Assembly: GCA_019113675.1 (NCBI GenBank)
Contig: DXHA01000017.1
Span: 1-59,365 of the forward strand
Reading direction: 5' to 3'
DNA: 59,365 nucleotides
Source of the DNA: Candidatus Yaniella excrementigallinarum
GTDB lineage: Bacteria > Actinomycetota > Actinomycetes > Actinomycetales > Micrococcaceae
Position 1 is the first letter of the stretch; each line of letters begins with the position of its first letter. This document shows, piece by piece, positions 10,379 through 30,860 of this stretch. Position numbers and translations under genes: made by a program. Below the pieces are notes generated by a model, which saw nothing but the letters and a program-made list of their open reading frames with translations, searched no databases and was not told where the DNA came from.

Positions 10379-10398
10379 GTACATTTAAACTGTTTGTT

Positions 10399-11298: not shown

Positions 11299-11413
11299 CT
11301 GCCGCTCTATGTGTCCTTTCAGTAAGCTCTTGAGTAATAAAACACTAACGTGCAGGCTAGGTTTAGAGCGTACAGTTACGGCTGTACCACTGGGTGATCG
11401 GAGCCTCAGGAGC

Positions 11414-11801: not shown

Positions 11802-11839
11802 GGCCGGTTATAAGCTCAAGCTACCCCGATAAACCGGCC
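11802..11839 (-). terminator. terminator of the ECF operon
   Basis: GGCCGGTT (11802-11809) and AACCGGCC (11832-11839) form a stem that overlaps the last codons of ecfT. On the minus strand the stem is followed by TTTTGG. It is the likely rho-independent end of the 17.0-11.8 kb operon. Confidence 0.6.
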
Positions 11840-12650
11840 AGCTATCACCAACGACGAACGCCATAACGACACCTACCAGGGTGAGCGCCAAGACGGCGAT
11901 ATCCAGGCCGCGAATTTTGAGATAGGCCAATCGGATATCTCGACCTCGATTGTCCACCGTCGCATAGGTAAAGCCGCGGGTTTCTAACGCTTCCACTGTT
12001 GTTCGAACAGACTGTGCCGTATTCAAAAAGATTGGGTAAAAGGACCGAATCGTCATAGTCGCCCAATGCACAACAGTGTGGTATCCAAGGAAACCGGGCT
12101 TTTCGGGCGGGGCGGACCGCAGTCGATAGTTATCAAAGACTGTGTTAAATTCTTCTACCAGAATTGGTAGCATCCGATAACCGTAACTGACTGCAAACGC
12201 CAAGAGTGTCGGCGCTCGCAGCGCTAGCAGAGCGTCTGAAAGTTTTTCCGGATCCAATGATACAAATGCTGCCATGGAGGCCATCGAGATTGTACCCAGT
12301 TTTAGAGTCAGCTCGGTCAGTGCCACAATCGTGGTTAAGTCTCCGCCAAAAAATAAGGCTGCGATAAATATATAGATCGTTTCTGTCAGCAGTCCGAAGA
12401 CAAAGAGCCCGAGAATCAGGGGGCCAACTTTGGCAAGGGCTACAGATATGACTCCCAAGATAAAGAAAACACTCAGGACGGTGAGATTGTGGGTGAACCA
12501 GGGAGCGATAGCTAAAATAAGATACCATGCGAGCACCGCGCGAGGATCCATCTTGGAAAACAGACCGCCGCGAGTGGCATATGCGGTTCTAATGAGTTCA
12601 AGTTTGATCCATTCTATGCTCAGAACATCGTGCTGTTTTCGTGCCATCAA
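11808..12650 (-). CDS. ECF transporter transmembrane component (EcfT)
   Basis: This 280-residue membrane protein of the CbiQ/EcfT family has five or six helices. The cytoplasmic coupling region contains the family's ARG-like motifs: about residue 155 DNYRLRSAPPEKPG, and about 205 VEALETRGFTY. It should link the substrate-binding S protein to the double ATPase encoded just upstream. The start overlaps the ATPase stop by 4 nt. It is the last gene of the operon. Confidence 0.87.
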   Translation of the reverse strand: MMARKQHDVLSIEWIKLELIRTAYATRGGLFSKMDPRAVLAWYLILAIAPWFTHNLTVLSVFFILGVISVALAKVGPLILGLFVFGLLTETIYIFIAALFFGGDLTTIVALTELTLKLGTISMASMAAFVSLDPEKLSDALLALRAPTLLAFAVSYGYRMLPILVEEFNTVFDNYRLRSAPPEKPGFLGYHTVVHWATMTIRSFYPIFLNTAQSVRTTVEALETRGFTYATVDNRGRDIRLAYLKIRGLDIAVLALTLVGVVMAFVVGDSWPVYRGSLSL

Positions 12651-14383: not shown

Positions 14384-15298
14384 TTAGTTGTCAACTTTCT
14401 GATCGGCGTTGTGCTGGGCTTTACGGAAGAAAAGGATGGCCAGAGCGGTCACAATGACGATGGCGATGACCGAAATCCAGACGAAACCGTTGCCGTATTC
14501 TTCGAGGAATTCTGGTTGGAAGGCTCCAACGTTGACGTCCCAGGCTTCAAGGAATGCGAAGAAGAATGAAGCGATGGAAAGTAGCACGACCGCACCGATG
14601 AACAAACCAGATTTTGGTGCTCTGCCGGGGAATGGTTCGCCAGGTACACGAGGCCGCATCCCCATCAGCGGTTCAATCTTGCCGTGGAGTGCTGGGATCA
14701 GCCATAGTGCAGGTACTACCCCAAAGAGTACCCCCGACATGAGGATATCGATCCCAAAGCCTAAGCCTTCCAAGACCAGCATGGATTCGGGTAGCCCCTC
14801 AACGTATTCTGCTTCTTCAACACCGATCCAAACTTTGCCTAGATCAACAACCGCAGACAACAGTTTGTCGATGAAAACCACAAGCAGCGCACCCAGTACG
14901 ATTTGTGGGCGGCTGCGCGGGTTACGGATAACCGACCCTGCGATGTAGATTGCCAGAAACATTTGTAGGAAGCCTTCAATCTCTGACAGTCCAGAGAAGT
15001 CTCCCATGAGCAGATCAGTGAAAATGATTTCACCCAGCGGAGCGCCCAGGGCGGCCCAGAATGGGCTGAACAACGCCGCCATTGTCAGGGGTATGAAGAC
15101 GAAATACGAAACGGAAAAATCGATCGGCCCGATATGCACGTCCGGGACGATCTCTAACAGAATATTTGACAGTCCGAATAAGGCCATGGACAGTACAAAG
15201 ATCATCAACTTTTGAGGGGTACTAAGATCGTAGTGTTTACATGATCCATCGTTTCCTGCGCCCCGTAACTGACCGGTGCGTTCATTGGTGGTAGTCAT
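14384..15298 (-). CDS. ECF transporter substrate-binding (S) component, substrate unknown
   Basis: This 304-residue membrane protein has about six helices and a long polar N terminus. The region about 45-100 (PIDFSVSYFVFIPLTMAALF then GAPLGEIIFTD) has the layout of an ECF S component, and the gene sits directly between the HAD gene and the ECF ATPase. Similar actinobacterial proteins are often mislabelled as a cell division protein. A further helix pair (about 245-295) follows a Pro-rich loop, longer than the ~190-residue S units of the vitamin systems. The ligand cannot be read from the sequence. The ATG follows GAGGAAAAGC. Confidence 0.75.
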   Translation of the reverse strand: MTTTNERTGQLRGAGNDGSCKHYDLSTPQKLMIFVLSMALFGLSNILLEIVPDVHIGPIDFSVSYFVFIPLTMAALFSPFWAALGAPLGEIIFTDLLMGDFSGLSEIEGFLQMFLAIYIAGSVIRNPRSRPQIVLGALLVVFIDKLLSAVVDLGKVWIGVEEAEYVEGLPESMLVLEGLGFGIDILMSGVLFGVVPALWLIPALHGKIEPLMGMRPRVPGEPFPGRAPKSGLFIGAVVLLSIASFFFAFLEAWDVNVGAFQPEFLEEYGNGFVWISVIAIVIVTALAILFFRKAQHNADQKVDN

Positions 15299-15357
15299 AA
15301 AAAGCTTTTCCTCTGCAGTGAGTTTCGTGGGGGTAGAGATTACGAGCGGTTAGCCGT

Positions 15358-17031
15358 TCAAGAGTGTGCAGTTGAAAACTGCTGCATCAAAGTGAGTAGG
15401 TCACCAGGTTCGTCAATGAGATGAGTGGCGGTGCCGTCTGTGACGGCTGCCGCTAGTTCGGTATGACTGGTGGAGCCGCCTGCTACGAGTACTCGGTGGC
15501 CGATGCCGCACTGTGCTGCAGCGTATGCGTCGTTTTCTGGTTTATCGCCTAGAAAAAAGGCTGACTGCGGTGCGGTATCTGCGATAGCCAAAGCGGTACG
15601 CACAATATCTGGATGAGGTTTGCGCAGACCAAATTCATCAGAGGCCACCACGGCGGTGATGTAGTCGGCAATACCGTGATCTGTTAACTGAGTTCGGACC
15701 GAAGCGCCTGAGACAGTGTTGGAAACAACAACAACCGGATAGTTGCGGTCGGCGCACCAGTGCAGCAGTTCGGGGATACCACTACGTATGACTCGACGCG
15801 ACTTGGCCTTCCCCCAACTTCGCATGAGTCGATGTGCCTGGGATCGCAGCAGCGCGGTGACTTGCGCGTTCTGTCCGGTGGCCCCGTAGGTACCCCAGAA
15901 GACCAACGGTGTCACCTCCACGTGGTCGTTGGCATCACAGCGTGTAGCTTTAGCGGCTTTGTGACCGGCAATCGCATTGTCCAAGACCTGTTGGGCGATG
16001 TCGGCTGGATTGTCATCGTTGACCGCAGGTCGCAGAAGCTCGGCCAGTTGGTGAAGAAAGCCTTGGTGTGCGACAGGGTCGTGCTCAGAGGTGGAAATCA
16101 CACCGCCGTGATCAATCAATAGCGCTATCTGCTGTGAATTAGCTGCACCGGCAGTGACCTGGTCTTTGAACGGTGAATCGGAGGACGCAACCGGGTCTTG
16201 GGTGTATTCCAGCAGCTTGACGATACCGGCAGGTGTATCAAACACAGCATCGGGGCGATCACGAACCGCAAATGGGGGAGTGTCCGTGTGATGACAGCGT
16301 GTTAAAATAACTGCTCCGACCTGACTGCGGCGTCCGGCGATGACATCTCGGTCTTGAGTGTCACCGACATACCAGCAGTGTTCTGGGCTGACTCCTAATG
16401 CATCGGCGGCCAGGTGAATCATGCCCGGATGTGGCTTCCTGATTTCAACCTCATCAGAATAGATTTGGACATCGAAGGCCTCGTGCAAGCCATGCTGCTG
16501 GAGGATTTCACGATGGCTGGCTCCCGAGTGAGCATTGGAAACGATCCCCAGCGAGATGTTCTGCTCTTGGCATTTGGCCACGAGTTTGCGGATACCGGGT
16601 CGAAGCTCATGCCCGGAAATCAAAAGGTTCTGTTGTTTCACCAATTCTGCAGCGTGTGTGGCCAGGAGTTCACGGGGCCCGTCGGGCAGATCTGAGACCA
16701 TAAAGTCGGCGATAACCTCGCGTTGACTTAGCTCTCGCGGCCGCAGCCTGCGGCTCGAAGCATTTTTCCAATGTTTCAAAGCGGTAAGACCAGCGTCGAT
16801 ACTTTCCCGCAGTCGCATCGCACAGATATTAAAGCCTGCAGCATTGAGGAGCTGTTCATAGAGTTGCGCCAGCCGGTCGCGCCCATTGGCGTGTTTTGAA
16901 GTTTGGAAGATTACACCGCCAAAATCTAAGAGTATGGCGTGCGGGGCGGAGAGACGCGGTAGCGATTCAGATATCGGAAGGGCTGTCCCAGTGGTGTTGG
17001 GAGCGCGGAGTGAAGTGGTCAATGAACTCAT
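15358..17031 (-). CDS. tandem HAD-family hydrolase (two phosphatase domains)
   Basis: This 557-residue protein carries two complete HAD hydrolase domains, about 30-285 and 300-555. Domain 1 has motif I LLDFGGVI, motif II IVSNA, motif III Lys in RKPHPG and motif IV YVGDTQDRDV. Domain 2 has LIDHGGVI, VVSNT, RKPHPD and FLGDKPENDA. In both the second Asp of the classic DxD is Gly, as in YihX-like sugar-phosphate phosphatases. It is the first gene of the ECF operon, so it may dephosphorylate the imported molecule or a related metabolite. The open frame reaches 17157, but ATG 17031 is preferred because the upstream part covers the operators. Confidence 0.82.
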   Translation of the reverse strand: MSSLTTSLRAPNTTGTALPISESLPRLSAPHAILLDFGGVIFQTSKHANGRDRLAQLYEQLLNAAGFNICAMRLRESIDAGLTALKHWKNASSRRLRPRELSQREVIADFMVSDLPDGPRELLATHAAELVKQQNLLISGHELRPGIRKLVAKCQEQNISLGIVSNAHSGASHREILQQHGLHEAFDVQIYSDEVEIRKPHPGMIHLAADALGVSPEHCWYVGDTQDRDVIAGRRSQVGAVILTRCHHTDTPPFAVRDRPDAVFDTPAGIVKLLEYTQDPVASSDSPFKDQVTAGAANSQQIALLIDHGGVISTSEHDPVAHQGFLHQLAELLRPAVNDDNPADIAQQVLDNAIAGHKAAKATRCDANDHVEVTPLVFWGTYGATGQNAQVTALLRSQAHRLMRSWGKAKSRRVIRSGIPELLHWCADRNYPVVVVSNTVSGASVRTQLTDHGIADYITAVVASDEFGLRKPHPDIVRTALAIADTAPQSAFFLGDKPENDAYAAAQCGIGHRVLVAGGSTSHTELAAAVTDGTATHLIDEPGDLLTLMQQFSTAHS

Positions 17032-17086
17032 AGCTTCGAACCTAGAAGCCGATGTTGACGCGAGGATTTCCGAAAGGTGAACACTT

Positions 17087-17132
17087 TGGAACGTTCCAGA
17101 TACATTTTGGAACGTTCCAAAACCTTCTCCAA
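17087..17132. promoter_or_regulatory. twin LacI-type operators and ECF operon promoter
   Basis: Two identical perfect palindromes TGGAACGTTCCA lie at 17087-17098 and 17108-17119, 21 bp centre to centre, so on the same DNA face. On the minus strand a -35 TTGGAG (17127-17132) and -10 CAAAAT (17104-17109) with a 17-bp spacer enclose the second copy, and the first copy covers the expected transcription start. A central CG palindrome is typical of LacI-family operators, and the LacI gene starts 68 bp away. Confidence 0.82.
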
Positions 17133-17186
17133 GATTGGACATTGTTCCGCATAGCACAGGGTTGTGGGAGTGCTAAAATCTGGGCT

Positions 17187-18236
17187 ATGGAGCCCAACTC
17201 AGCGAGACGTTATTCGCGGCCCACGATTATCGATGTTGCCCGTGCCGCGGGTGTCTCAAAATCTCTGGTGTCATTGGCCCTATCAGGTAAGTCCGGGGTG
17301 AGTGACGCTTCGCAACAGAAAATCTTTCAAGCGGCAGCAGACCTTGGGTACACCTCCAACGTGTGGGCTCGGTCATTGGTACGGGGTCGGACGCGGCTCA
17401 TCGGGGTAGTAACCACTGATATTGCCAGTGCTTATAACTCCGATGTGGTGATCGGTCTTGAAGATGCGGCCGCTATGGACAACTACGAAGTGTTGTTGGC
17501 TCACGGTCGGCGCGATCCGGATCATCTCATGCGCGGTGTGCAACGCATGCTTGAACTAGGGGTTGATGGACTGGTCGTTGTCTCGTCGAAGGTGCCTCAG
17601 ACTGTTCTTGACGACGCGGCACGCCGTAGGCCTGTAGTGGTGGTTGGGCGACCTAGTGCAGCTGGCGATCTTTTGGATGTGATCCATAATGATGATGAGC
17701 TGGGCGGAACACTGGCGGTCGAGCATCTCATTGATGCAGGCCACCGGCAGGTTGGATTTGTCGCGACCTCATCGCGTGCCGCTGTACAGACACGCCGCGA
17801 AGCATATGAGCGTGTTATGCAGCAGGCGGGGATCGATTATCGCTGGATAGTTTCGGCGGCAGATCAGTCACGGGAAGACTTTCCACATCATATGATTAGA
17901 GCGTTCACCTCAGCCTGTGCAACTGTGAACCAGCGTCTGCCCACGGCACTATTTGTGGCTATCGATCGAATTGCCGTGGATATAATGGGAGCTGCCTGGG
18001 ATGCTGGTCTACGAGTTCCCGAAGATATCGCCTTGGTAGGATATAACAATTCCCGGCTCTCTGAGTCGATACGTCCAGGACTGACCAGTGTGAATCAGCC
18101 ACGAAATGCCATGGGGCAGTTGGCGATGCAATTCCTGACAGAACGGTTCGAAGGGCGCACTCAGCCACGCAGAGAAGTAATGACCCCGGAACTTGTGATT
18201 CGTTCCTCCTCTGGTTTTGAGCCTTCCTCAATGTAG
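17187..18236 (+). CDS. LacI-family transcriptional regulator
   Basis: This 349-residue repressor has the N-terminal helix-turn-helix at about 10-55 (PTIIDVARAAGVSKSLVSLA, then hinge-region KSGVS) and a periplasmic-binding-protein-like sensor domain (about 65-340). It starts at ATG 17187, where a TAAAAT -10 ends 7 nt upstream, so the mRNA is probably leaderless; the longer open frame from 17052 runs through the operators and is not used. It most likely controls the divergent tandem-HAD/ECF operon via the twin palindromes. The inducer is unknown. Confidence 0.9.
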   Translation: MEPNSARRYSRPTIIDVARAAGVSKSLVSLALSGKSGVSDASQQKIFQAAADLGYTSNVWARSLVRGRTRLIGVVTTDIASAYNSDVVIGLEDAAAMDNYEVLLAHGRRDPDHLMRGVQRMLELGVDGLVVVSSKVPQTVLDDAARRRPVVVVGRPSAAGDLLDVIHNDDELGGTLAVEHLIDAGHRQVGFVATSSRAAVQTRREAYERVMQQAGIDYRWIVSAADQSREDFPHHMIRAFTSACATVNQRLPTALFVAIDRIAVDIMGAAWDAGLRVPEDIALVGYNNSRLSESIRPGLTSVNQPRNAMGQLAMQFLTERFEGRTQPRREVMTPELVIRSSSGFEPSSM

Positions 18237-18243
18237 CAGTAAA

Positions 18244-19626
18244 TCAACTGCGGCGGAACCGTGCGCCTTGGTGGTCAGCGGCAAGGTGAGCTTTGGCCCC
18301 CGTCATAGTCTCACGCAGTGTTGTGGGCGTGTCTGGGCGCTGCAGTAGTAGTCCGCGGCGTTTCAGTTCCGGGGTGAGATAGTGCGCCACTCGCTGAAGA
18401 TCTGCTGGTCGCACGGCTGCGGAGACGTTGAACCCATCCAAATCGGCTTCGGTTTGCCAGCGTACTAGTTCGTCAGCGACCGTGGATGCAGAGCCGATTA
18501 GGACGGGACCGCGCCCACCGATGGCAACGAACTCAGCAAGATCACGCACCGTCCAGGTCTTGGCACCGGCGAGCTTGGTCATGGATTCTAGTGCGGAGCG
18601 GTTGGCCTCGGTGGTGACGTACTCGATCGGTGAGTCCGGGTCGGTACCTGCCAGGTCTACGCCGGTCCAGCCGCCGAAAAGGGTGAGTGCAGATTCGGTG
18701 TCCACGTACTGTGCGTAACTGTCCAAGCGTTGTTGGGCTTCGTCATCGGTGTCGGCGACAACGATGGTAACCATGGCAAAAATCTTGATCGCGTAGCGGT
18801 CACGGCCGCGGGCTTCGAGCCCATTGCGTATTTGGTCCACCCAATGGCGCACCAGGCGTGGAGAGCTGCCGGTTACAAAGATCGCCTCGGCGTGATCCAG
18901 GGCGAATTGTTGGCCACGCGGTGAGGCTCCGGCTTGGAAGAGGAAAGGCGTGCGTTGTGGACCGGGGTGGGTCAGTGCCGCTCCCGGGACGGTGAAAAAT
19001 TCTCCCGAGTGGTTAATCGGATGGACTTTGGTGGCGTCTAGGAAGGTCGCGTTTGTGCGGTCGGCCAGTACTGCGCCTTCTTCGAATGATGATTCAAACA
19101 GCGAGTACATGACGTCCATGTACTCGTCAGCGCGATCGTAGCGCGCATCGTGTGGGATCTGCTGGGCTAGACCCATATTGCGGGCGGCCGAGTCCTGGTA
19201 CGAGGTGACGATGTTCCAAGCCAGCCGACCTTTGGTCAGATGGTCCAGAGAGCTGAGCCGTCTGGCGAGCAGAAAGGGGTGCTCGTATGAGACCGATGCG
19301 GTCACCCCGAAGCCGAGATGGTTGGTGACCGCTGCCATGGCAGAAACGGCCGAAAGGGGATCCAACAGTGGGTATTGCACGCCCCCGCGGTAGGCGCCGG
19401 CCGGTCCAGCTCCGTACACGTCATAGACTCCGAGCACATCGGCCAGGAATAGTGACGAGAATCCGGCGTCGTCGAGAGTTGACGCTAGCGAGGTCCAATA
19501 TTCGAGGGTGTCGAACTCATCGGCTCGGGACTCCGGATGCCGCCACAGGCCGGGGGACTGGTGGACCGGTACCATCATGTCGAATGCATTGAGCAAGATG
19601 GGACGTTGCGGGGCTGCAGGGGTCAT
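18244..19626 (-). CDS. FMN-dependent monooxygenase, NtaA/SnaA/DszA family
   Basis: This 460-residue flavin-dependent monooxygenase has the luciferase-like TIM barrel. Family features include LLNAFDMMVPVHQSPGLWRH at the N terminus, NIVTSYQDSAARNMG near 145 and PFLFQAGASPRGQQFA near 230. Relatives (DszA, SnaA, NtaA, SoxA) oxidise sulfones, chelators or other organics with FMNH2 from a separate reductase; no reductase gene is present here. ATG 19626 follows AAGGAGAC and overlaps the MFS stop by 4 nt, so it is preferred to the longer frame from 19767. It is the last gene of the SAM-riboswitch operon. Confidence 0.88.
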   Translation of the reverse strand: MTPAAPQRPILLNAFDMMVPVHQSPGLWRHPESRADEFDTLEYWTSLASTLDDAGFSSLFLADVLGVYDVYGAGPAGAYRGGVQYPLLDPLSAVSAMAAVTNHLGFGVTASVSYEHPFLLARRLSSLDHLTKGRLAWNIVTSYQDSAARNMGLAQQIPHDARYDRADEYMDVMYSLFESSFEEGAVLADRTNATFLDATKVHPINHSGEFFTVPGAALTHPGPQRTPFLFQAGASPRGQQFALDHAEAIFVTGSSPRLVRHWVDQIRNGLEARGRDRYAIKIFAMVTIVVADTDDEAQQRLDSYAQYVDTESALTLFGGWTGVDLAGTDPDSPIEYVTTEANRSALESMTKLAGAKTWTVRDLAEFVAIGGRGPVLIGSASTVADELVRWQTEADLDGFNVSAAVRPADLQRVAHYLTPELKRRGLLLQRPDTPTTLRETMTGAKAHLAADHQGARFRRS

Positions 19627-21011
19627 AGCGTCTCCTTGGTTTGTACTGAGGGGGCCTGAGATTCCAGCCGGTATTGTCGAGCTGCTGCCCGAGCAGGATC
19701 GCGTGCCGCCAGCGCGGCTATGAGCGAGATTGTGCATAACAGAGTCAAGTAGCCACAAATCAGCCACGGTGTCCCGCCGCCGGCGGCGTAGAGCAGGGTA
19801 GCTATCATGGGCATGATGCCGCCGCCGATGACGGTACCGATTTGATATCCCATATTAACCCCGGAATAGCGAACCGCTAGCGGAAACTGCTCGGCGAACC
19901 AGGCGGCCTGCGGGCCATAGACGGCGTCGTGAGCCAGACTCATGCCTATGATGACGATCACCGGCAAGAATACCAGCGGTCCAGCATCGAGGTAAGCGAA
20001 GAAGATCCAGCCAAAGACCGCGGTGGCCACACAGCCGAACACTGTAACGGGGCGGCGCCCGACCTTGTCCGAGAGCCATCCCCAGGCGGGTCCGGAGAAA
20101 AGACTCACGGCCGAGGCGATCATGACCGCGATGACACCGGCAGAGTCATCGCCGCGTTGGGCGATCAAATAACTCAGCATATACACGGTAATCAGGTAGT
20201 AGATGCTGGTTTGTGCCAACCGCATGCAGATGGTGACCAATAGGGCTCGCTGGTGTTGGGTCACGACGGTCCAAATTGGTTTATCCGCCACGTTGCCCGC
20301 ATCTTTGAGCTCTTGGAACTCAGGTGCGTCGGTGACCCCGAGCCGAATCCACAGGCCCAGGGCGACCAGTACAGCTGAGGCTATAAATGGGATACGCCAT
20401 CCGAAGTTGGCAAACTGTTCATCTGTGGTCAGCAGCTGGACGAGGAAGAACGCCCCGGTAGCTAGCAGCATGCCCGCGGCAGACCCAATCTGGGTGAAGG
20501 ATCCGAAGAATCCGCGGCTGTGAGCCGGGGCGTGTTCGACCGACAGTAGTGCCGAGCCGCCCCATTCGGCGCCGGCGGAGAGGCCTTGAACGATGCGCAG
20601 TCCGACCAGACTTGCAGGTGCCCACCAACCGATCGCGGCAAAGTTTGGCAGCAAGCCGATCATGGTGGAGGCGGCGCCCATGACCACCAGTGACACCACC
20701 AAAAGCGCCTTGCGCCCGATGCGGTCGCCCAGGTGTCCGGCGATTATGCCACCGAGAGGACGGGCGAGGAACCCAACGGCCAAGGTGGCGAAGGAAGCCA
20801 GTGTGTTGCCAAGTTCTGAACCGGACGGGAAAAACTGCACATTGAAGATCAGTGCTGCGGCTGTGCCGTAGAGGTAAAAGTCATACCACTCGATGGTGGT
20901 GCCGGCGAAGGCTGAAGCGAGCACGCGCTTTTTGGCTCGCCACCCCAAACCCTGCGAGGTCGTTTCGGACTGATCTGTGCGGTTGTCAAGCAGCGTGCTG
21001 ATGGTGTTCAT
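19623..21011 (-). CDS. MFS transporter, metabolite:H+ symporter type
   Basis: This is a 462-residue major facilitator protein with twelve helices. The conserved cytoplasmic loop GHLGDRIGRK lies near 95 and the partner loop LSDKVGRRPV near 310. N-terminal AFAGTTIEWYDFYLYG is diagnostic of the MHS (ProP/ShiA) branch. In this operon it probably imports the organosulfur compound handled by the two monooxygenases. Both ends overlap neighbouring genes by 4 nt, giving tight coupling. Confidence 0.9.
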   Translation of the reverse strand: MNTISTLLDNRTDQSETTSQGLGWRAKKRVLASAFAGTTIEWYDFYLYGTAAALIFNVQFFPSGSELGNTLASFATLAVGFLARPLGGIIAGHLGDRIGRKALLVVSLVVMGAASTMIGLLPNFAAIGWWAPASLVGLRIVQGLSAGAEWGGSALLSVEHAPAHSRGFFGSFTQIGSAAGMLLATGAFFLVQLLTTDEQFANFGWRIPFIASAVLVALGLWIRLGVTDAPEFQELKDAGNVADKPIWTVVTQHQRALLVTICMRLAQTSIYYLITVYMLSYLIAQRGDDSAGVIAVMIASAVSLFSGPAWGWLSDKVGRRPVTVFGCVATAVFGWIFFAYLDAGPLVFLPVIVIIGMSLAHDAVYGPQAAWFAEQFPLAVRYSGVNMGYQIGTVIGGGIMPMIATLLYAAGGGTPWLICGYLTLLCTISLIAALAARDPARAAARQYRLESQAPSVQTKETL

Positions 21012-22372
21012 CGAGTAGCGACCCGGTCTTGGTTCGTTGCGGAGGACCCTTCTGCAGAGGCCTCATCCGATGACCCGGTTTTGGCATCACCAATGGCATT
21101 AAGCCCTTCGGGTAGGGTGCCGTTGACGTAGTAATCGCCGATGGTGCGGGCACGGAAGACAATCGGGTTGTGGGTGGACACGGTTTGAGCGTTTCGCCAG
21201 TGTCGGTCTAAGCCCTTTTTGACCGCGGTGTTGGACGCCCCACCGGTCAAAAATAACTCGGAGGCCACGCGCACCGTCTCCTCGGGCACGGTGACTTGTG
21301 CCTGTTCAACCGCGATCTCGGCCTCAAACATCGCAGACGGTAGTTCGCCGTCGTATTCTGGACGCTCTGCTCCGGCGGCGACGGCGGCATCAAGTGAGCG
21401 GTCCAGGGTGGCAGCAGCATGCAGGGTGGTAGCTTCGACAGAAAAGGCGGTGGCCGCGATGCGCCCAACGGTTTCCTGGATGAGTGGGTCCTGACGGTAT
21501 GGCAGGCCCAGGCCGGTGTTGAACGTGCGTTTACGTACGCGAACACCGGCTGCTGCATCGTCGCGGACCGCGCGGGCGATACCGGCCAGCACAGCCAGCA
21601 GCACCTCTTGAAAGAATGCGGCTTCATGAACGGCCTCAGCCGAGCCCGGAGTGCGTGGCAGCACGGCGATCGAATCCACTGAAACGTTGCGGAACCGTGC
21701 TGTGCCAGTGGCGGTGAGTTTCTGGCCGAAACCATCCCAGTCGTCTTCAAGCTCAACGCCCTCAGCGTCGACAGGGACTACAGCGAAGGACCGCCCCGGG
21801 GCTACGTTGCCTTCGGCATCCTGCAGCGAGGCCGAGACGCGGGTGTGTGTGGAGTATAGCGAACCGGTGGCGTAATATTTTTCGCCATCGATAGTCCAGT
21901 TGGTGGGTTCCCCGTCGACAGCTGGTGTGGACGGACGCAGCTGAGTGTTCAGCGTCCCCAACGCGTTGTTCCCGATCTCTGTCGAGGCATTGCCGACAGT
22001 CGTGCCCTGCAGCACCTCGCGGTACCAGTATTCTTTGCGCTTGGTGTCGGCGAACCGTAGGGCCTCGAGAAACCCATAGTGTGAGCGGTACTGGTGGGCG
22101 ATGTTGGAGTCGGCTGCGGCCAGATCGATCAGTAACCGGATGAAGGTATGCACACTGGCCCCAGGACCCCCGTACTCCTTTGGCACCCGCAGTACTGAGA
22201 AGCCGGCGGCGTTGAGCTGCTCAATTTGGTCGACGGGTCGTTGGCCGTTGAGTTCTCGGTCCTTGGCTCCGGAAGCGATCTCGTCAAAGATCGGTTGGAA
22301 GTGTGCTTTGAGGTCCTCATATTCTGCTGTGGTGGGAACCTGAGGCTGACAACGTGCAACAAGCAAAGTCAT
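21008..22372 (-). CDS. acyl-CoA dehydrogenase-fold monooxygenase (DszC/SfnB-like)
   Basis: This 454-residue flavoprotein has the acyl-CoA dehydrogenase fold, with LRVPKEYGGPGAS near 60, the FMN/FAD region GNASTEIGNN, WTIDGEKYYATGS near 165 and a C-terminal TGGASNTAVKKGLDRHWRNAQT helix bundle. The catalytic Glu of true acyl-CoA dehydrogenases is not evident. Together with the SAM riboswitch and the DszA-like partner, this places it among organosulfur monooxygenases such as DszC and SfnB. The tail beyond residue 425 is Ser/Glu rich. It is the first gene of the operon; AAAGGATAT precedes the ATG. Confidence 0.87.
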   Translation of the reverse strand: MTLLVARCQPQVPTTAEYEDLKAHFQPIFDEIASGAKDRELNGQRPVDQIEQLNAAGFSVLRVPKEYGGPGASVHTFIRLLIDLAAADSNIAHQYRSHYGFLEALRFADTKRKEYWYREVLQGTTVGNASTEIGNNALGTLNTQLRPSTPAVDGEPTNWTIDGEKYYATGSLYSTHTRVSASLQDAEGNVAPGRSFAVVPVDAEGVELEDDWDGFGQKLTATGTARFRNVSVDSIAVLPRTPGSAEAVHEAAFFQEVLLAVLAGIARAVRDDAAAGVRVRKRTFNTGLGLPYRQDPLIQETVGRIAATAFSVEATTLHAAATLDRSLDAAVAAGAERPEYDGELPSAMFEAEIAVEQAQVTVPEETVRVASELFLTGGASNTAVKKGLDRHWRNAQTVSTHNPIVFRARTIGDYYVNGTLPEGLNAIGDAKTGSSDEASAEGSSATNQDRVATR

Positions 22373-22381
22373 ATATCCTTT

Positions 22382-22470
22382 CCATCGATACTGGCGGTAG
22401 CACCTGTTTGACCTGTGGTCTCCGGTTGCTGCGGCGTCAACGAGCCAGTTCTCTCGGCCACTCTAGATGG
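22382..22470 (-). ncRNA. S-adenosylmethionine riboswitch (SAM-I/IV clan)
   Basis: The minus strand contains the SAM-I core in order: GAGAGAACTGGCTCG, then GACGCCGCAGCAACC, a variable hairpin, then CAGGTGCTACCGCC, and a P1 closing stem CCATC (22466-22470) with GATGG (22382-22386). It lies immediately upstream of the DszC/MFS/DszA-like operon. The 3' strand of P1 is only a few nt before the AAAGG ribosome binding site and ATG at 22372, so ligand binding probably blocks translation initiation rather than making a terminator. High SAM would turn off organosulfur scavenging. Confidence 0.88.
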
Positions 22471-22480
22471 GTACGTGCAA

Positions 22481-22496
22481 AGGCTAGCAGTAGCCT
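22481..22496. repeat. short inverted repeat upstream of the SAM riboswitch
   Basis: AGGCTA-GCAG-TAGCCT forms a 6-bp dyad just 5' of the riboswitch on the minus strand. It may be an operator near the promoter or a 5' hairpin of the transcript. No regulator can be named. Confidence 0.35.
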
Positions 22497-22674
22497 GACG
22501 CATGGCACAATCTAGCGTCACGATAATGGCGTACATCACAAGCAGCGGGGGTAGGTCTGACCCGGTTATTGTTCTCAAGGCGTGGATAGCGGCTACACCG
22601 TCATCGCGGGGCAAAGCCCGCTGTGAAATTAGACTCAAAACCTTGAATAATCACGTTCATGTGACCAAAATAGG

Positions 22675-22693
22675 TAAGGTAAGCCTAACTTAG
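22675..22693 (+). promoter_or_regulatory. IdeR/DtxR iron box
   Basis: TAAGGTAAGCCTAACTTAG matches the 19-bp DtxR/IdeR consensus (TTAGGTTAGSCTAACCTAA) at about 15 of 19 positions, including the central palindrome. It lies 45-50 bp upstream of the MmgE/PrpD gene start, in its promoter region. The downstream pair should be repressed when iron is plentiful. Confidence 0.82.
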
Positions 22694-22737
22694 GTTTGTA
22701 TTTGAGTCGCGCGGTCTGTAGCCGTGCTGAGAGTGAG

Positions 22738-24132
22738 ATGCCGATGTCAGAGTTTCACGAGCAAACAGAAGTTCAACAACTTGCGGAGTTTATTGCACGA
22801 GCCGATATTCAAGACATAAGCCCCGAAGCGCTATGGCAATTGAAAATCCGCGTCCTGGACACTCTAGGAGTAGCCATCGGAGCCCTAGAAGCAGAACCAA
22901 TTATCGCTATCAAAGGCTTACTTGAAGATCTTGGCGGTACTCCACAATCCACGATGATCGGTGGAGGCAAAACCTCACCGGAACGTGCAGCCTTTTATAA
23001 TTCTGCGCTGAGTAGGTACCTCGATTTTATGGATTCGTACTTGGCAAAAGGCGAAACGAATCACCCATCCGATAACTTCGGTGCAGTTCTGGCCGCTGCG
23101 GAGTCGCAAGATGCCGATGGAACAGTTTTGCTAACTGCATTCGCAATTGCCTATCAGGTGCACACCCGACTTTCTGATGTCGCACCTGTTCGAGCCAAAG
23201 GCTTCGACCACACAACGCAGGGCGTCTATGCTGCAGCAGCGGCCGCAGCCAAAGCTTTTGGTCTCAACCAAGATCAAATTGCCAATGCGATTGCAATCGC
23301 TGGGACCGCCAATAACGCCTTACGTGTTACACGTACTGGCGACCTGAGCAACTGGAAGGGATTGGCCTACCCACAGGTTGCAAAAGAAGGCACCTGGAGT
23401 GCGTTACTTGCCGGTCGCGGGATAACAGGCCCGACCGAAGTCTTCGAAGGCAATAAAGGGTTCAAAGAATCCATCGCCGGTGATTTCGAGCTGGACTGGT
23501 CAGCAGAAGATTTGGAAATGGTGCGCAAAAGCATCATCAAAAAACACAACGCTGAGATCCATTCGCAGTCAGCACTGGATGCGGCCCTGGACGTCCGTGG
23601 CCAACACGGTTTCGATGTCTCCCAGATTCGCGATATTCAGCTGAAAACCTTCGATGTCGCCTATTCCATTATTGGAGGTGGTGAAGAAGGGGATAAACGC
23701 AATATCCAGACCAAGGAGGAGGCAGACCACTCACTGCCATGGATGCTGGCTGCAATACTGCTCGATGGTGAACTCACCCCCGAGCAGTATGAACCACACC
23801 GGATCGTTGCAAGTGATGTCCAAACCCTGATGCAAAAAGTCAGCATCATCCCTGATGCAGCGTTCAGCGACCGATTCCCGGACGCTATGCCAGCAGAACT
23901 TACCGTCACGTTGGAAAACGGCACAATTTTGAAAGCCACCAGGGACAGCTACGAAGGCTTCCACGACAACCCTTTGACCTGGGATGGCGCTCGCAAGAAA
24001 TTTGATCGCTTAGCCACCCCATACGCAAACGACGAGCTTCGGGATCAGATCGCCGAGATAGTACGAAACCTCGAAGAACATAAGGTCGCAGAGCTAACCG
24101 GGCTACTTCAACACGTCGGCGCAGAGCGCTAA
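22738..24132 (+). CDS. MmgE/PrpD family protein
   Basis: This 464-residue protein belongs to the MmgE/PrpD family (2-methylcitrate dehydratase, cis-aconitate decarboxylase and others). It has the all-helical N-terminal domain with RVLDTLGVAIGA near 35, SRYLDFMDSYLAKGETNHPSDN near 95 and HTTQGVYAAAAAAAKAFGL near 155, then KKHNAEIHSQSALDAAL near 270 and the small C-terminal domain. Members dehydrate or decarboxylate di- and tricarboxylates. There are two candidate ATGs, 22738 and 22744. No prpB/prpC neighbours exist, so a methylcitrate-cycle role is unlikely. It pairs with the phosphosulfolactate-synthase-like gene under an iron box. Confidence 0.85.
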   Translation: MPMSEFHEQTEVQQLAEFIARADIQDISPEALWQLKIRVLDTLGVAIGALEAEPIIAIKGLLEDLGGTPQSTMIGGGKTSPERAAFYNSALSRYLDFMDSYLAKGETNHPSDNFGAVLAAAESQDADGTVLLTAFAIAYQVHTRLSDVAPVRAKGFDHTTQGVYAAAAAAAKAFGLNQDQIANAIAIAGTANNALRVTRTGDLSNWKGLAYPQVAKEGTWSALLAGRGITGPTEVFEGNKGFKESIAGDFELDWSAEDLEMVRKSIIKKHNAEIHSQSALDAALDVRGQHGFDVSQIRDIQLKTFDVAYSIIGGGEEGDKRNIQTKEEADHSLPWMLAAILLDGELTPEQYEPHRIVASDVQTLMQKVSIIPDAAFSDRFPDAMPAELTVTLENGTILKATRDSYEGFHDNPLTWDGARKKFDRLATPYANDELRDQIAEIVRNLEEHKVAELTGLLQHVGAER

Positions 24133-24196
24133 CACCTGTCCGCACGTGACACCAACAGATTTATCATTTCAGCGACTGACCACAGAAAGGAAAGTC

Positions 24197-25033
24197 ATGA
24201 CCAACGCAACCGAACACAATGTTTCCTTTAACTTTATTCCACGCGCATACCGGCCACAGAAGCCTCGTACAGTAGGCTTGACTGAGATCCGAGCCCCACA
24301 CTATGCCGCCTATGGAACCCGACACATGCAAGATGTCTTTGATCTTGCAGGACAGTGGGTTGACGGTATCAAATGGGCTGGTGGCTCCTTTGCTCTGGCA
24401 CCAACTGAACAAGTTAAAGCCATCAATGACATCGCCCATGAAAATGGCTCTTATGTTTCATCGGGAGGCTGGATTGAAACCGTGCTTCGCTACGGTGACG
24501 ATGCGGTAGATCAGTATCTGAAGGAAGCAAAAGAAGTCGGATTCGATATCATCGAAATTTCCACCGGCTTCATCATGCTCCCAACTTCAGGGCTGCAGCG
24601 TTTGATCGAGAAAGTAAATAAAGCCGGATTAAAAGCTAAACCCGAGCTAGGCATCCAGATCGGCTCCGGTGGTGATACTGCTGAAGAGGAACTTGCCGCC
24701 GAAGGCGCCAAGGACATTGGCGACCTGATCGACCGCGGTAAGAAATCCCTGGAAGCCGGTGCTGAGATCATCATGATCGAATCAGAAGGTATCACCGAAA
24801 ACGTTAAAGAATGGAAGACTAGCGCGGCCGCTTCAATTATGAATGGTCTGGGCATGGAGAACGTCATGTTTGAAGCCGCTGACCCATTAGTTTTCGAATG
24901 GTACATCAAGAACTACGGGAACGAAGTGAACTTATTTGTTGACCATTCACAGATCCTTCAACTAGAAGGTATGCGCCAGAATATCTGGGGTAATAAGACC
25001 ACCTGGGGCCGAATCATAAATCCCGGTCACTAA
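24197..25033 (+). CDS. phosphosulfolactate synthase-like protein (ComA family)
   Basis: This 278-residue TIM-barrel protein matches the ComA family over its whole length: GLTEIRAPHY near 27, DLAGQWVDGIKWAGGSFAL near 50, SSGGWIETVLRYG near 90, IEISTGFIMLP near 115, KPELGIQIGSGG near 150, IMIESEGITENV near 195 and NLFVDHSQILQLEG near 250. Archaeal ComA adds sulfite to phosphoenolpyruvate. Bacterial and plant (HSA32) relatives are less defined, so the reaction here is unproven. ATG 24197 follows AAAGGAAAG; the longer frame from 24146 is not supported. It lies 64 bp after the MmgE/PrpD gene and before a strong terminator. Confidence 0.87.
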   Translation: MTNATEHNVSFNFIPRAYRPQKPRTVGLTEIRAPHYAAYGTRHMQDVFDLAGQWVDGIKWAGGSFALAPTEQVKAINDIAHENGSYVSSGGWIETVLRYGDDAVDQYLKEAKEVGFDIIEISTGFIMLPTSGLQRLIEKVNKAGLKAKPELGIQIGSGGDTAEEELAAEGAKDIGDLIDRGKKSLEAGAEIIMIESEGITENVKEWKTSAAASIMNGLGMENVMFEAADPLVFEWYIKNYGNEVNLFVDHSQILQLEGMRQNIWGNKTTWGRIINPGH

Positions 25034-25049
25034 TCTCTGGTAGCTCATC

Positions 25050-25096
25050 GCGCTTCTGACCAGCCCATATTTGGCAGGTCAGAAGCGCAACTGTTT
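25050..25096 (+). terminator. rho-independent terminator after the ComA-like gene
   Basis: GCGCTTCTGACC (25050-25061) pairs perfectly with GGTCAGAAGCGC (25077-25088), and CTGTTTTTC follows. It ends the iron-box operon. Confidence 0.88.
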
Positions 25097-25161
25097 TTCT
25101 ACGGCTTTTAGATACTAGAGCGACACTGCGATGTGCACATATCGGGTCGCCTAAATAGAAG

Positions 25162-25190
25162 GGCCATGTCCTGCTGTGTAGGACATGGCC
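25162..25190 (-). terminator. terminator of tRNA-Lys
   Basis: GGCCATGTCCT and AGGACATGGCC form an 11-bp perfect stem with a 7-nt loop, 7 nt beyond the 3' end of tRNA-Lys on the minus strand. A weak pyrimidine-rich tract (CTTCTATTT) follows. Confidence 0.75.
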
Positions 25191-25196
25191 GAAGCG

Positions 25197-25269
25197 TGCT
25201 CCCCGCCGGACTCGAACCGGCAACCTACTGATTAAGAGTCAGGTGCTCTACCAATTGAGCTAGAGGAGC
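25197..25269 (-). tRNA. tRNA-Lys (anticodon CUU)
   Basis: Minus-strand cloverleaf with acceptor stem GCTCCTC/GGGGAGC, D-arm AGCTCAATTGGTAGAGC, anticodon loop CTCTTAA (anticodon CTT) and T-arm CCGGTTCGAGTCCGG. It is 73 nt long with no encoded CCA. Confidence 0.95.
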
Positions 25270-25427
25270 CTATTGCTTTTGGGCAACGAAGTAAAACTTT
25301 ATCAAAGAAATACCTCGGGGCAAAATCGAAATAGCCGGTGTTCGTGGCCACCGTAACGACTAGTGCTGTCTCAGACACGAACGGTCACGTGAAGTTTTGT
25401 GGAGCACGAGATCAGTAGGATTTGACT

Positions 25428-27149
25428 ATGACGTCTAAAAACCCCGAAATTGACATGAAGCCGCGTTCGCGCGATGTAACTGATGGCTACGAACGGGCTC
25501 CGGCCCGTGGAATGCTGCGTGCGGTTGGCATGGGCGATGAGGATTGGGATAAGCCGCAGGTAGGTATCGCATCGTCCTGGAATGAAATCACACCGTGCAA
25601 CCTTTCACTCGACCGATTGGCTGAAGCCGCCAAAACCGGTGTACATGCGGCCGGCGGCTACCCGCTGGAGTTCGGCACTATTTCGGTATCCGATGGTATT
25701 TCCATGGGGCACGACGGCATGCACTTCTCGCTGGTCTCACGCGAGGTGATTGCTGACTCGGTAGAAACCGTGATGATGGCAGAGCGTCTGGACGGCTCAG
25801 TTCTGTTGGCTGGCTGTGATAAGTCACTACCGGGGATGCTCATGTCAGCCGCTCGGTTGGATTTGGCATCAGTGTTTGTCTACGCCGGTTCGATCATGCC
25901 TGGCTATGCCACGCTATCTGACGGTGTGGAACGTCAGGTCACACTGATTGATGCTTTCGAAGCGGTTGGCGCTTGTGCCCGCGGGACCATGTCATTAGAA
26001 GATTTGGACTCCATTGAACGTGCGATCTGCCCGGGCGAAGGTGCCTGCGGTGGTATGTACACGGCCAACTCCATGGCATCAGTGGGGGAGGCCTTGGGTA
26101 TGTCTCTGCCGGGTTCGGCTGCCCCGCCATCGGCAGATCGTCGTCGTGATTATGATGCACGTAGGGCCGGTGAGGCTGTGGTTAACATGTTGGCCAAGGG
26201 TATTACTGCCCGCGATGTGCTAACCAAGAAGGCGTTTGAAAATGCTATCGCTGTAATGATGGCATTTGGTGGGTCATCCAATACTGTGCTGCACTTGCTG
26301 GCCATTGCCAATGAGGCTGGCGTGGATCTGACCCTGCACGACTTCAACCGTATTGGGGATAAGATCCCACATATTGCAGATATGAAACCATTTGGTCAAT
26401 ACGTTATGACTGATCTGGACCGCATCGGTGGTGTACCAGTGGTCATGCAGGCGCTGCTGGATGAAGGCCTGCTGCACGGTGACGCATTGACGGTAACCGG
26501 TAAGACCGTTGCTGAAAACCTGGCAGAGCTGAAGCCAGCCAAACTTGATGGCGCGGTACTGCGTACCATGGATGATCCTATCCACGCCACAGGTGGTCTG
26601 ACGATTCTGCACGGTTCGATGGCACCGGAAGGCGCGGTTGTGAAATCAGCTGGTTTTGATGCCGAAGTCTTTGAAGGCACCGCACGAGTATTTGAACGCG
26701 AACAACAGGCCATGGATGCACTGGCTGCCAACGAGCTGAAAAAAGGCGACGTCGTGGTGATCCGCTACGAAGGACCAAAGGGAGGTCCGGGCATGCGCGA
26801 AATGTTAGCCATCACCGGTGCAATTAAAGGTGCCGGTCTTGGTACCGATGTGCTGTTGTTAACCGATGGTCGTTTCTCTGGTGGTACCACCGGGTTGTGC
26901 ATCGGTCATATCGCCCCGGAAGCTGCTGTTGGTGGACCGATTGGATTAGTCGAAGACGGCGACAGTATTCGCGTTGATATTGCTAACCGCACTATCGATC
27001 TTGACGTCAGCGAAGAAGAACTGGCTACCCGGAAACAAAACTGGAAGCCAATTGCACCAAAATTTACCACCGGTGTGCTTGGAAAATTTGCCACGCTTGT
27101 GCAGTCAGCGGCAGAAGGCGCTCACTGCAACGTCGAGGTAGAGCTCTAA
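25428..27149 (+). CDS. ilvD: dihydroxy-acid dehydratase
   Basis: This 573-residue IlvD catalyses the third step of valine/isoleucine synthesis, dehydrating dihydroxy acids with an iron-sulfur cluster. Cluster and active-site motifs are visible: GCDKSLPGM near 125, [18 protein letters not shown] near 200 and GRFSGGTTG near 485. The ATG at 25428 is preferred over the TTG two codons earlier. AGTAGGAT upstream could act as ribosome binding site or as a -10 (TAGGAT, 6 nt before ATG). It precedes the ilvBNC attenuator. Confidence 0.96.
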
Positions 27150-27172
27150 GCACTGTTTGCTCGGGGCCCGAT

Positions 27173-27330
27173 TTGACAATTTCGGGCAAAACGACGAGTA
27201 TGAGGGCATGTCGAAGACCCTACTAGTCGTTATTTAGCAGCGCATGGACTGAAGAATATTTCAGTTGGCGACACCGCCGTCCATGCGCTGAACCCCGAGC
27301 AGGCATACCCGCCGTAGCCGGGGTTTTTTT
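27173..27330 (+). promoter_or_regulatory. ilvBNC promoter and transcription attenuator
   Basis: The promoter is -35 TTGACA (27173-27178), a 17-bp spacer and -10 GAGTAT (27196-27201), putting the start at or near the A of the leader-peptide ATG at 27208. After the leader stop codon, AGCGCATGGAC (27239-27249) pairs with GTCCATGCGCT (27279-27289), enclosing smaller hairpins. Then AACCCCG (27291-27297) pairs with CGGGGTT (27319-27325), followed by a run of T to 27330, forming the terminator. This is the layout of a leader-peptide attenuator sensing branched-chain aminoacyl-tRNA. Confidence 0.85.
27208..27237 (+). CDS. ilv operon leader peptide (MSKTLLVVI)
   Basis: This 9-codon ORF ends in Leu-Leu-Val-Val-Ile and stops 1 nt before the first attenuator hairpin. 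All three regulated amino acids are represented, which is the signature of an ilv leader peptide. It appears to be translated leaderless, because the -10 ends 6 nt before the ATG. Confidence 0.85.
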   Translation: MSKTLLVVI

Positions 27331-27423
27331 GTGGGTATCGCGACACCGCGCAGCACCCTACGACGCGAACGACGTCGACAGTACTAAAAACTGCACATCT
27401 TACGACTGATCGAGGCATATTCC

Positions 27424-29292
27424 ATGAGTTCTGGATCAAATATCACCCCGTCGGTGATGCCATCTCACCCGCCGCAGCGGGAAAAATCTGCACACGACTC
27501 TGATACCCAGGCCGTCCCAGGACCAAACCGGGTGGTGCCACCTGTCAGCATGACCGGCGCCCAGGCCATTGTTCGTTCGCTTGAAGAACTCGACGTCACC
27601 GATGTCTTCGGCCTACCAGGCGGCGCTATTCTGCCCACCTACGACCCACTCATGGATACCTCGCGGATTCGTCACATTCTCGTGCGTCACGAGCAAGGTG
27701 CCGGCCACGCCGCACAGGGCTATTACCTGGCCACCGGCAAAACTGGGGTAGCCATTGCCACCTCTGGCCCCGGGGCAACCAACCTGGTCACTGCCATTGC
27801 CGATGCCAACATGGATTCTGAAGCCGTAGTCTTTATTACCGGCCAGGTCGGGTCCAAACTCATTGGCTCCGATGCTTTCCAAGAAGCCGACATCGTGGGT
27901 ATCACCATGCCCATCACCAAACACTCATTTCTGGTGCGCCGCGCCGAAGACGTTCCACAGGCTCTGGCCGAAGCGTTCTACATCGCCAATACCGGTCGTC
28001 CCGGCCCGGTGTTAGTTGATGTCACCAAGGATGCCCAGGAATCCGAAATGCAATTCTCCTGGCCACCGGTCATGGACCTGCCAGGCTACCGTCCTGTGAC
28101 CCGTGGACACTCCCGCCAGGTGCGCGAGGCTGCCAAACTCATCCAAGAAGCCAAACGTCCGGTGCTTTATGTTGGTGGCGGCACCATGCGTGCCCAAGCC
28201 GCCACAGAACTGACCGAACTGGCCAAAACCACCGGCGCACCGGTGGTCACCACGCTCAATGCTCGCGGGGTCTTTCCGGATCATGACCGCCAAAACTTGG
28301 GTATGCCCGGCATGCACGGTACGGTTTCGGCAGTATCCGCCCTGCAAATGTCAGACCTGCTGATCACCCTGGGGGCACGCTTTGATGACCGGGTCACAGG
28401 CCAACTGGCCTCATTTGCTCCACAGGCTAAGGTCATCCACGCCGATATCGACCCGGCTGAGATCTCCAAAAACCGGGCAGCTGATGTTCCCATCGTTGGT
28501 GATGTCAAAGCCATCCTGCCGGAACTGACTCAGCAAGTGCGCAATAGCTTTGATACCCATGGCACCCCGGATCTTACCGAATGGTGGGACATCATCAATC
28601 GCACCCGGGCCACCTACCCACTGGGCTACACCCCAACCGATGATGGACTGATGGCACCACAAAAAGTCATCGAGACTCTTTCTGAAATTGCCGGTCCCGA
28701 AGCCATCTATGTAGCAGGTGTGGGCCAACACCAAATGTGGGGTGCACAATTTGTCGGCTACCAGCGGCCAAACCAATGGATGAACTCCGCTGGACTTGGC
28801 ACCATGGGCTTTGCCATCCCAGCGGCCATGGGCGCCCAAGTGGCCGAACCCGACCGTGCGGTCTGGGCCATCGATGGGGATGGTTGCTTCCAGATGACCA
28901 ACCAAGAACTTGCTACCTGCGTTATTAACCAAATCCCCATCAAAATCGCCCTCATTAATAACTCCTCGTTGGGCATGGTCCGTCAATGGCAGACCCTGTT
29001 CTACGACTCCCGGTATTCCAACACCGATCTGAACACCGGTGCCAACAGCATTCGGGTCCCAGACTTCGTCAAACTCGCTGAAGCCTACGGTGCCGTAGGC
29101 ATTCGGGTAGAAGAAGAAGCCGATGTTGCCCCGGCCATCGAACGGGCTATGGAAATCAACGACCGCCCCGTCCTTGTTGATTTCGTGGTCTCGGCCGACT
29201 CCATGGTCTGGCCCATGGTCCCATCGGGAGTTTCCAACGATGAAATTCAAGTAGCCCGGGACATGACCCCGGATTGGGACGAGGAGGACTAA
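27424..29292 (+). CDS. ilvB: acetolactate synthase, large subunit
   Basis: This 622-residue thiamine-diphosphate enzyme has three domains. The first has the catalytic Glu in [14 protein letters not shown] near 85, the central FAD domain has [12 protein letters not shown], and the last has the GDG...N diphosphate motif ([12 protein letters not shown] through NNSSLGM) near 480-520. It makes acetolactate or acetohydroxybutyrate from pyruvate. A polar N-terminal extension of about 35 residues is typical of actinobacteria. It stands downstream of the attenuator; ilvN starts 1 nt after its stop. Confidence 0.97.
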
Positions 29293-29293
29293 C

Positions 29294-30860
<1,567 letters not shown>

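Follow-up and report, generated by a model that had tools for sequence, protein, structure and literature searches.

The stretch analysed here, called the window below, is a single contig of 59,365 nucleotides (DXHA01000017.1) from the 2.56-Mb genome of Candidatus Yaniella excrementigallinarum. It holds two neighbouring genes, one coding for a MmgE/PrpD-like protein and the other for a ComA-like protein, preceded by predicted iron boxes. The elements of this pair were located as follows, the support being given in brackets.

22670..22693, no strand: two overlapping predicted IdeR/DtxR (iron) boxes, offset by 5 bp (weight matrix, 18.3 and 19.0)
22738..24132, plus strand: MmgE/PrpD-like protein of 464 amino acids, a distinct subfamily (PF03972/PF19305, fold)
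24197..25033, plus strand: ComA-like (PF02679) triosephosphate isomerase (TIM)-barrel protein of 278 amino acids (PF02679, alignments, fold)
25050..25098, plus strand: intrinsic terminator, a 12-bp stem with a 3 bp extension, then a T run (folding energy)

Both genes scored far over the Pfam cut-offs, the PrpD-like gene with 241.8 bits for PF03972 and 153.6 bits for PF19305, and the ComA-like gene with 243.2 bits for PF02679. They lie on the same strand with 64 nucleotides between the PrpD stop codon and the ComA-like ATG, and the iron-box pair ends 44 nucleotides 5' of the PrpD-like ATG. The hairpin at 25050-25088, followed by the T run, was computed to fold with -31.1 kcal/mol (z -5.92), and the initial annotation, which had described a two-gene unit ending at a strong terminator, was correct in this respect. 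A separate terminator and promoter scan missed this hairpin, since its loops were limited to 3-8 nucleotides; the same scan gave one promoter-like site against 2.7 expected, and no promoter was mapped.

The initial annotation had also reported a 15-of-19 match to the iron box, and this was found again as TAAGGTAAGCCTAACTTAG at 22675-22693 against TTAGGTTAGGCTAACCTAA. The second box, at 22670-22688, overlaps the first. Scoring was done with a DtxR weight matrix built on 22 published Corynebacterium glutamicum DtxR sites, the cg2796 site being excluded. With this matrix the two boxes were the top two sites among all 59,365 bases, while the third reached 11.3. None of 400 Markov sequences of 200 nucleotides each reached 19.0, their maximum being 13.8. 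A predicted IdeR/DtxR site is thus placed directly upstream of the first gene, as expected for a member of the regulon. In the whole genome, a degenerate IUPAC (International Union of Pure and Applied Chemistry) pattern with at most three mismatches was found at five places, against four for the control read backwards, and the genome pattern count by itself therefore proves little. The window box, with two mismatches, ties for the best site in the genome. Two of the other four places (L173 and L175), as read by eye, precede genes for siderophore-binding-protein-like products followed by a permease, and the remaining two (L176 and L177) lie away from iron genes. A DtxR-family repressor is encoded in the genome, with two PF02742 matches above the cut-off.

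Stronger support for iron control, as judged from box prediction, came from the comparison of related pairs than from the pattern count in the own genome. After removal of duplicates there were 63 actinobacterial loci, of which 61 were scored (L058 has no PrpD-like gene and L139 only pieces), each over the 200 nucleotides upstream of the PrpD start, with windows from the same loci as controls. With the lowest training score as the minimum, 37 of the 61 pairs had a box, as did 4 of 3408 control windows; at a threshold of 9 the counts were 47 of 61 and 12 of 3408. The sample consisted of nearest relatives, in which species of one genus, e.g., 12 of Brevibacterium, are not independent. For the proteobacterial pairs a Fur-like site was searched with a Fur consensus and a match of at least 12 out of 19, and was found in 5 of 21 pairs against 46 of 1125 control windows. 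These five were all beta/gamma-type pairs, of which there were eight; five of eight thus carried such a box, against 20 of 385 control windows (Fisher P 3e-5, for a subset picked post hoc that includes one unplaced Proteobacteria metagenome-assembled genome). A search for more betaproteobacterial relatives gave 2 of 268 genomes, namely the seed and one with a too short upstream stretch. We consider iron regulation of the pair well supported, and the earlier view of the unit as one of iron-starvation type holds on these counts. By box prediction the pair falls under two unrelated iron repressors, DtxR-type and Fur-type, across phyla, and a general function in iron starvation is therefore likely.

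The two genes also belong together. Among the 80 nearest relatives, kept out of 414 in genome contigs and so favouring close ones, a PrpD-like match was found 13-157 nucleotides upstream of the ComA-like match and on the same strand in 72 loci. In 245 genomes of the family, the ComA-like gene was found in seven, six of them, that of the window among them, full length with 78-100% identity and one, G012, broken; two further matches were weak, with 27-32% identity. The matching PrpD subfamily (790-823 bits) was present in exactly the same seven genomes, the other listed PrpDs reaching at most 215 bits. The co-occurrence called for by the initial annotation was thereby found. G012 retains an open PrpD-like frame; in one Corynebacterium genome (G815), both members of the pair are in pieces. 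Divergences of the two proteins correlated over 39 pairs (Mantel r 0.85, reached in 0 of 2000 permutations), with r falling to 0.68 when Salinibacter and two haloarchaea were left out. In Actinobacteria, Proteobacteria, Salinibacter and haloarchaea alike, the two genes behave as if inherited together.

Its distribution is wide but patchy, and the pair appears to be mobile. The ComA-like gene is rare, being found in one of nine genomes of the genus, in 3 of 394 of the class and in 14 of 201 Corynebacterium genomes; the two class genomes other than our own hold a more distant ComA-like gene with no PrpD-like match in 7-8 kb. Betaproteobacterial ComA-like copies are 78-80% identical to the window protein, an indication of transfer from one phylum to another. 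A ComA-like match was present in 32 plasmid records, 20 of them with at least 46% identity. Twelve of these 20 were examined, and the pair was adjacent in seven and linked in 11; the remaining record had no annotated PrpD within 6 kb, its annotation being incomplete. In four haloarchaeal plasmid records the two genes share a strand and are separated by 1.7-5 kb. Viral contigs gave no match in a scan with a single protein, which covers close relatives. A shared third gene was sought as well: clusters of PrpD-like and ComA-like proteins spanned 42 and 41 genus labels, respectively, and the next cluster, ABC (ATP-binding cassette) ATPases, spanned nine. With no widely shared third gene, two steps should suffice.

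An apparent counterpart is cg2796-cg2797 of C. glutamicum, a MmgE/PrpD and ComA pair which is a published DtxR target (PMC1382209, PMC2627906). The initial annotation had presented the pair as an unusual IdeR target and a candidate for an undescribed system. Novelty as an iron target does not stand beside the published DtxR target, and iron control of the pair was partly known before. In Brune 2006 (PMC1382209) the row for cg2796 gives the site GAAGGCAAGCCAAACTTAA with the values 18, +5.3 and +1610, which we interpret as the distance, the log2 ratio on the array and the reverse-transcription PCR ratio in the dtxR mutant; +1610 is among the largest values in the accessible part of the table. 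The cg2796 site was among those tested by band shift, where DtxR bound almost all of 31 motifs in vitro; the exception named is cg1120. Expression of cg2797 was raised at acid pH, with coenzyme M guessed as the product and the cg2796 operon given as DtxR-repressed (PMC2627906), and both genes are listed as pH-responsive with DtxR as regulator (PMC2807442). Both were strongly raised by indole (log2 6.87 and 6.29; PMC7764795). In another expression table cg2796 stands at 11.01, i.e., 11-fold up, with acn and sdh genes down (PMC9491836), and a SigB study reports m-values near 1.2 for the two genes (PMC1779776). A Corynebacterium relative with the pair (L134) has GAAGGCAAGCCTAACTTAA at -13, one base off the published cg2796 site; the exact published site occurred in 0 of 242 Corynebacterium genomes. 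In the accessible open-licence literature neither the function of the pair nor its spread to other phyla was described, and no paper there joined phosphosulfolactate synthase with PrpD, or phosphosulfolactate with MmgE.

The predicted structure of the ComA-like protein (predicted local distance difference test, pLDDT, 75; predicted template modelling score, pTM, 0.77) has the ComA fold, with 1qwg at template modelling (TM) scores of 0.69/0.76 and 1u83 also in the top three in Foldseek. With TIGR03849 the protein scored 76.1 bits against a cut-off of 280; this is an archaeal model and hence a strict test. For comparison we used four canonical sequences, M. jannaschii 1qwg, B. subtilis 1u83, Xanthobacter XcbA and the coenzyme M-type enzyme of Methylocystis. 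The Lys of the G(K/S)K motif, which we take to be the proposed catalytic acid of ComA, and the RESG motif were present in all four, and in the alignment both were replaced in all 42 rows of the window subfamily, the Lys by Q154 and RESG by E195-S/A-E-G-I-T-E201. Residues Q154, E195, E197, G198, I199, T200 and E201 were invariant in these 42 rows, as were K148-P-E150, G156, G158 and G159. The initial annotation had named addition of sulfite to phosphoenolpyruvate (PEP) as the ComA-family reaction in archaea and had suggested an assay for it. For the window subfamily this chemistry appears unlikely, because residues common to the four canonical enzymes are replaced in every row, and its automatic annotation as phosphosulfolactate synthase is probably incorrect.

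More distant paralogues (L144 and L145) kept the Lys but not RESG. One of them belongs to an operon on a Bradyrhizobium plasmid (L145:1337-4765), with the order MmgE/PrpD, PrpF-type tautomerase/isomerase and ComA-like, next to a tricarboxylate transporter component, and the partnership of PrpD and ComA thus has a second, distant version. The other is an Arthrobacter plasmid ComA relative (L144:3986-8130) near genes for an ABC transporter, a CocE/NonD hydrolase, thioredoxin and an UGSC protein, a neighbourhood which is possibly a sulfonate pathway. The plant heat-stress protein HSA32, which is phosphosulfolactate-synthase-like, presumably resembles the window subfamily.

The PrpD-like protein was modelled with higher scores (pLDDT 89, pTM 0.90). 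In Foldseek the nearest structures by E-value were cis-aconitate decarboxylases, 2-methylcitrate dehydratases (PrpD/MmgE) having similar TM-scores, and identities were 22-24%. Residues D93, H103, H159 and K207 of cis-aconitate decarboxylase (IRG1) are, as we assume, the catalytic ones. D96, H109, K207 and K268 of the window protein align with decarboxylase residues, while the H158/H159 region is PrpD-like (GFDH). A stretch GGGEEGDKR is an insertion compared to the solved PrpD and decarboxylase sequences. The NCBIfam PrpD models gave 139, 123 and 100 bits, all far under their cut-offs of 950, 575 and 458. The second PrpD of the genome is of the canonical type, with 750.7 bits for NF042438 (cut-off 950), a partial protein having been supplied. 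As the initial annotation had stated, methylcitrate and coenzyme M genes are not nearby: reading by eye showed no prpB or prpC among open reading frames of at least 120 amino acids at 15-35 kb, and no coenzyme M-pathway partners among the surrounding reading frames.

The wider surroundings of the pair in the window comprise the following features.

18247..22372, minus strand (divergent): context genes for a NtaA/DmoA flavin mononucleotide-dependent monooxygenase, a major facilitator superfamily symporter and a SfnB-like oxidoreductase (TIGR03860, TIGR04022)
25196..25269, minus strand: tRNA-Lys(CTT), border of the species-variable segment containing the pair (ARAGORN)

The NtaA/DmoA gene scored 491 bits with TIGR03860, above the cut-off, and the SfnB-like gene 248 bits with TIGR04022, under the cut-off of 431. 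We treat these genes as context only. In seven sister loci the homology on the ilvD side starts at 25196 (six loci) or 25159 (one locus). Eight window proteins from the left of the tRNA-Lys were tested and none was found in the 3.8-10 kb covered at these loci, whereas the control ilvD was found in seven of seven. About 16 kb left of the tRNA-Lys (window 8900-25196) is missing at the matching place in one sister genome (G006). In this genus, DNA seems to be inserted variably at the 3' end of the tRNA-Lys. Reading by eye placed branched-chain amino acid (ilv) genes close by in the window (25422-30860) as well as in three Corynebacterium loci (L037, L041 and L044).

Other neighbours were recorded in related loci. 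Succinate dehydrogenase genes occurred no more than about 5 kb from the pair in several unrelated lineages, with SdhB above the cut-off in L015, L018 and L081; possible further cases are L055 and L065, with SdhA-like flavoproteins under the cut-offs shown, and L070, by BLAST clustering only. They were dropped as a functional clue, the L055 and L065 matches being below cut-off and a background rate lacking. A gene for a Pyr_redox_2 flavoprotein, possibly a type II NADH dehydrogenase (NDH-2), stands directly 3' of the ComA-like gene in Candidimonas and Castellaniella (L070:4566-5888 and L072:6857-8257), downstream of a Fur-like box; the NDH-2 identity was not upheld, the matches being general Pyr_redox ones. 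A gene of a sulfur-transporter family is divergent from nine Brevibacterium pairs (ten in one count) in the iron-box region, that at L027:3221-4408 matching PF04143, and a relative is found downstream of a Bradyrhizobium pair (L101:9362-10597). DsrE genes lie near the Salinibacter pair, and sulfurtransferase and DoxD genes near haloarchaeal pairs.

The reading we favour, tentatively and at somewhat less than an even chance, is that of a mobile iron-repressed module in which the product of the PrpD-like enzyme would be an unsaturated polycarboxylate, to which the ComA-like enzyme would add a nucleophile, perhaps sulfite. IdeR with Fe(II) would block the promoter, and iron starvation would open it. 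A citrate-like polycarboxylate would then accumulate as aconitase and succinate dehydrogenase are down-regulated. Enzymes of the PrpD family function without an iron-sulfur cluster, and the PrpD-like enzyme could convert the citrate-derived polycarboxylate to an unsaturated, aconitate- or itaconate-like acid. The reaction of the ComA family is sulfite addition to the PEP double bond, and itaconate closely mimics the shape of PEP, with CH2COO- replacing the phosphate. With its changed pocket, the ComA-like enzyme may add a nucleophile, most plausibly sulfite, to this alkene instead of PEP. Sulfite is favoured because of the family chemistry, the iron need of sulfite reductase and, weakly, the sulfur-type neighbours. 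A fully specified version appears improbable to us: sulfite added to itaconate or aconitate would yield 2-(sulfomethyl)succinate or sulfotricarballylate, a compound acting as a sulfite sink, and perhaps also as a ligand for iron, once the iron-dependent sulfite reductase and aconitase no longer work, and DtxR-type and Fur-type control would have been recruited independently in separate phyla. Roles as a metallophore precursor or as a sulfite sink, both raised by the initial annotation, are possible.

Several observations weigh against the proposed module. The sulfur-type neighbours in several lineages were counted without a background rate. Among the actinobacterial pairs, 24 of 61 scored below the lowest training site (11.4) and 14 below 9; four (L059, L071, L078 and L133) were clearly free of a box upstream in the weight-matrix scan. 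A DtxR box was found in 0 of 21 proteobacterial pairs, alphaproteobacterial pairs had neither a DtxR nor a Fur box at the Fur cut-off of 12/19, and the Salinibacter and two haloarchaeal pairs had no DtxR box, this being the only motif tried there. Eight of the 80 loci had no PrpD-like match in the flank examined (L058, L074, L088, L089-L092 and L104). In C. glutamicum, deletion or overexpression of cg2796-cg2797 left indole tolerance unchanged and no product of indole conversion was found, other products not being mentioned in the accessible text (PMC7764795). The PF02679 profile gave no match in a C. glutamicum control genome though cg2797 is called ComA-like, which is unexplained. As for the solo ComA-like genes, a substitute for PrpD beside them was looked for, and none was seen in the five of the eight loci that were read.

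Other explanations of the pair were considered. In one of them, the citrate arm would be bypassed without iron: the PrpD-like enzyme would take the place of aconitase and form aconitate or isocitrate, and the ComA-like enzyme would act as a lyase giving succinate and a small keto acid, with carbon flowing without the aconitase cluster. We regard this as unlikely. It would suit the cluster-free PrpD family, and Foldseek gives PrpB and dimethylmalate-lyase barrels for the ComA-like model, if far under ComA, but relatives of ComA are not known as lyases. Succinate dehydrogenase genes near the pair in several lineages would fit too, although the enzyme is itself iron-rich and the neighbours were counted without a control rate; the 11-fold rise of cg2796 while acn and sdh genes go down (PMC9491836) is consistent with the bypass. 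Less probable still is a pair working in the reverse direction in degradation or detoxification, where the ComA-like enzyme would eliminate sulfite or another group and the PrpD-like enzyme hydrate the alkene, for salvage of carbon or sulfur in stress. The divergent SfnB-like and NtaA/DmoA genes of the window, the sulfur-transporter family beside the nine Brevibacterium pairs (PF04143 tested for one) and the distant ComA relative in a transporter operon argue for such a role, but iron repression does not predict a catabolic function and no transporter belongs to the unit.

That the second gene codes for a true phosphosulfolactate synthase, with which the pair would start synthesis of a coenzyme M-like compound or sulfolactate from PEP and sulfite, seems very improbable. 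The Pfam ComA score of 243 bits, the annotation in plasmid records and a suggestion made for cg2797 (PMC2627906) speak for it. They are set against 76 versus 280 bits with the archaeal TIGR03849, the lost Lys and RESG, and surroundings in which no coenzyme M-pathway partners were seen by eye, whereas such partners accompany the enzymes of Xanthobacter and Methylocystis. We judge it equally improbable that the pair makes a small polycarboxylate secreted as an iron chelator (metallophore) in iron starvation: the iron control resembles that of the siderophore-uptake genes of the same genome, but the conserved neighbours of the pair include neither an exporter nor a receptor.

Taken together, the pair is a real, conserved module of iron-starvation type, and the common annotation of its second gene is doubtful. 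From the initial annotation, the two-gene unit of this type and its co-occurrence in other genomes stood, the novelty as an iron target did not, and the PEP and sulfite chemistry appears unlikely. None of the outcomes named as refuting the initial annotation was seen: the two genes co-occur in other genomes, and for the C. glutamicum counterpart both binding of DtxR and a response have been published. This apparent counterpart has a very large value in the dtxR mutant, no role being described for it in the accessible text, and the unit of two genes is small enough for direct assay.

Compared to known systems, the window pair is like cg2796-cg2797 in its composition of MmgE/PrpD and ComA and in the upstream DtxR site, orthology being judged from published names and near relatives. 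The PrpD-like protein appears, from its model, to have the fold of PrpD/MmgE and cis-aconitate decarboxylase, several likely catalytic residues aligning with theirs, and differs from them by an identity of about 22-24%, the GGGEEGDKR insertion and scores below the equivalog cut-offs. With ComA, XcbA and YitD the second enzyme shares the Pfam family, the TIM-barrel fold, an N-terminal KPR motif and several Glu and Lys sites, at 27% identity to XcbA and 23% to the coenzyme M-type enzyme of Methylocystis. Where canonical ComA has RESG and G(K/S)K, however, the window subfamily has the invariant E-S/A-EGITE and KPE...Q.G.GG, and its partner, unlike those of canonical phosphosulfolactate synthase, is a PrpD-like enzyme.

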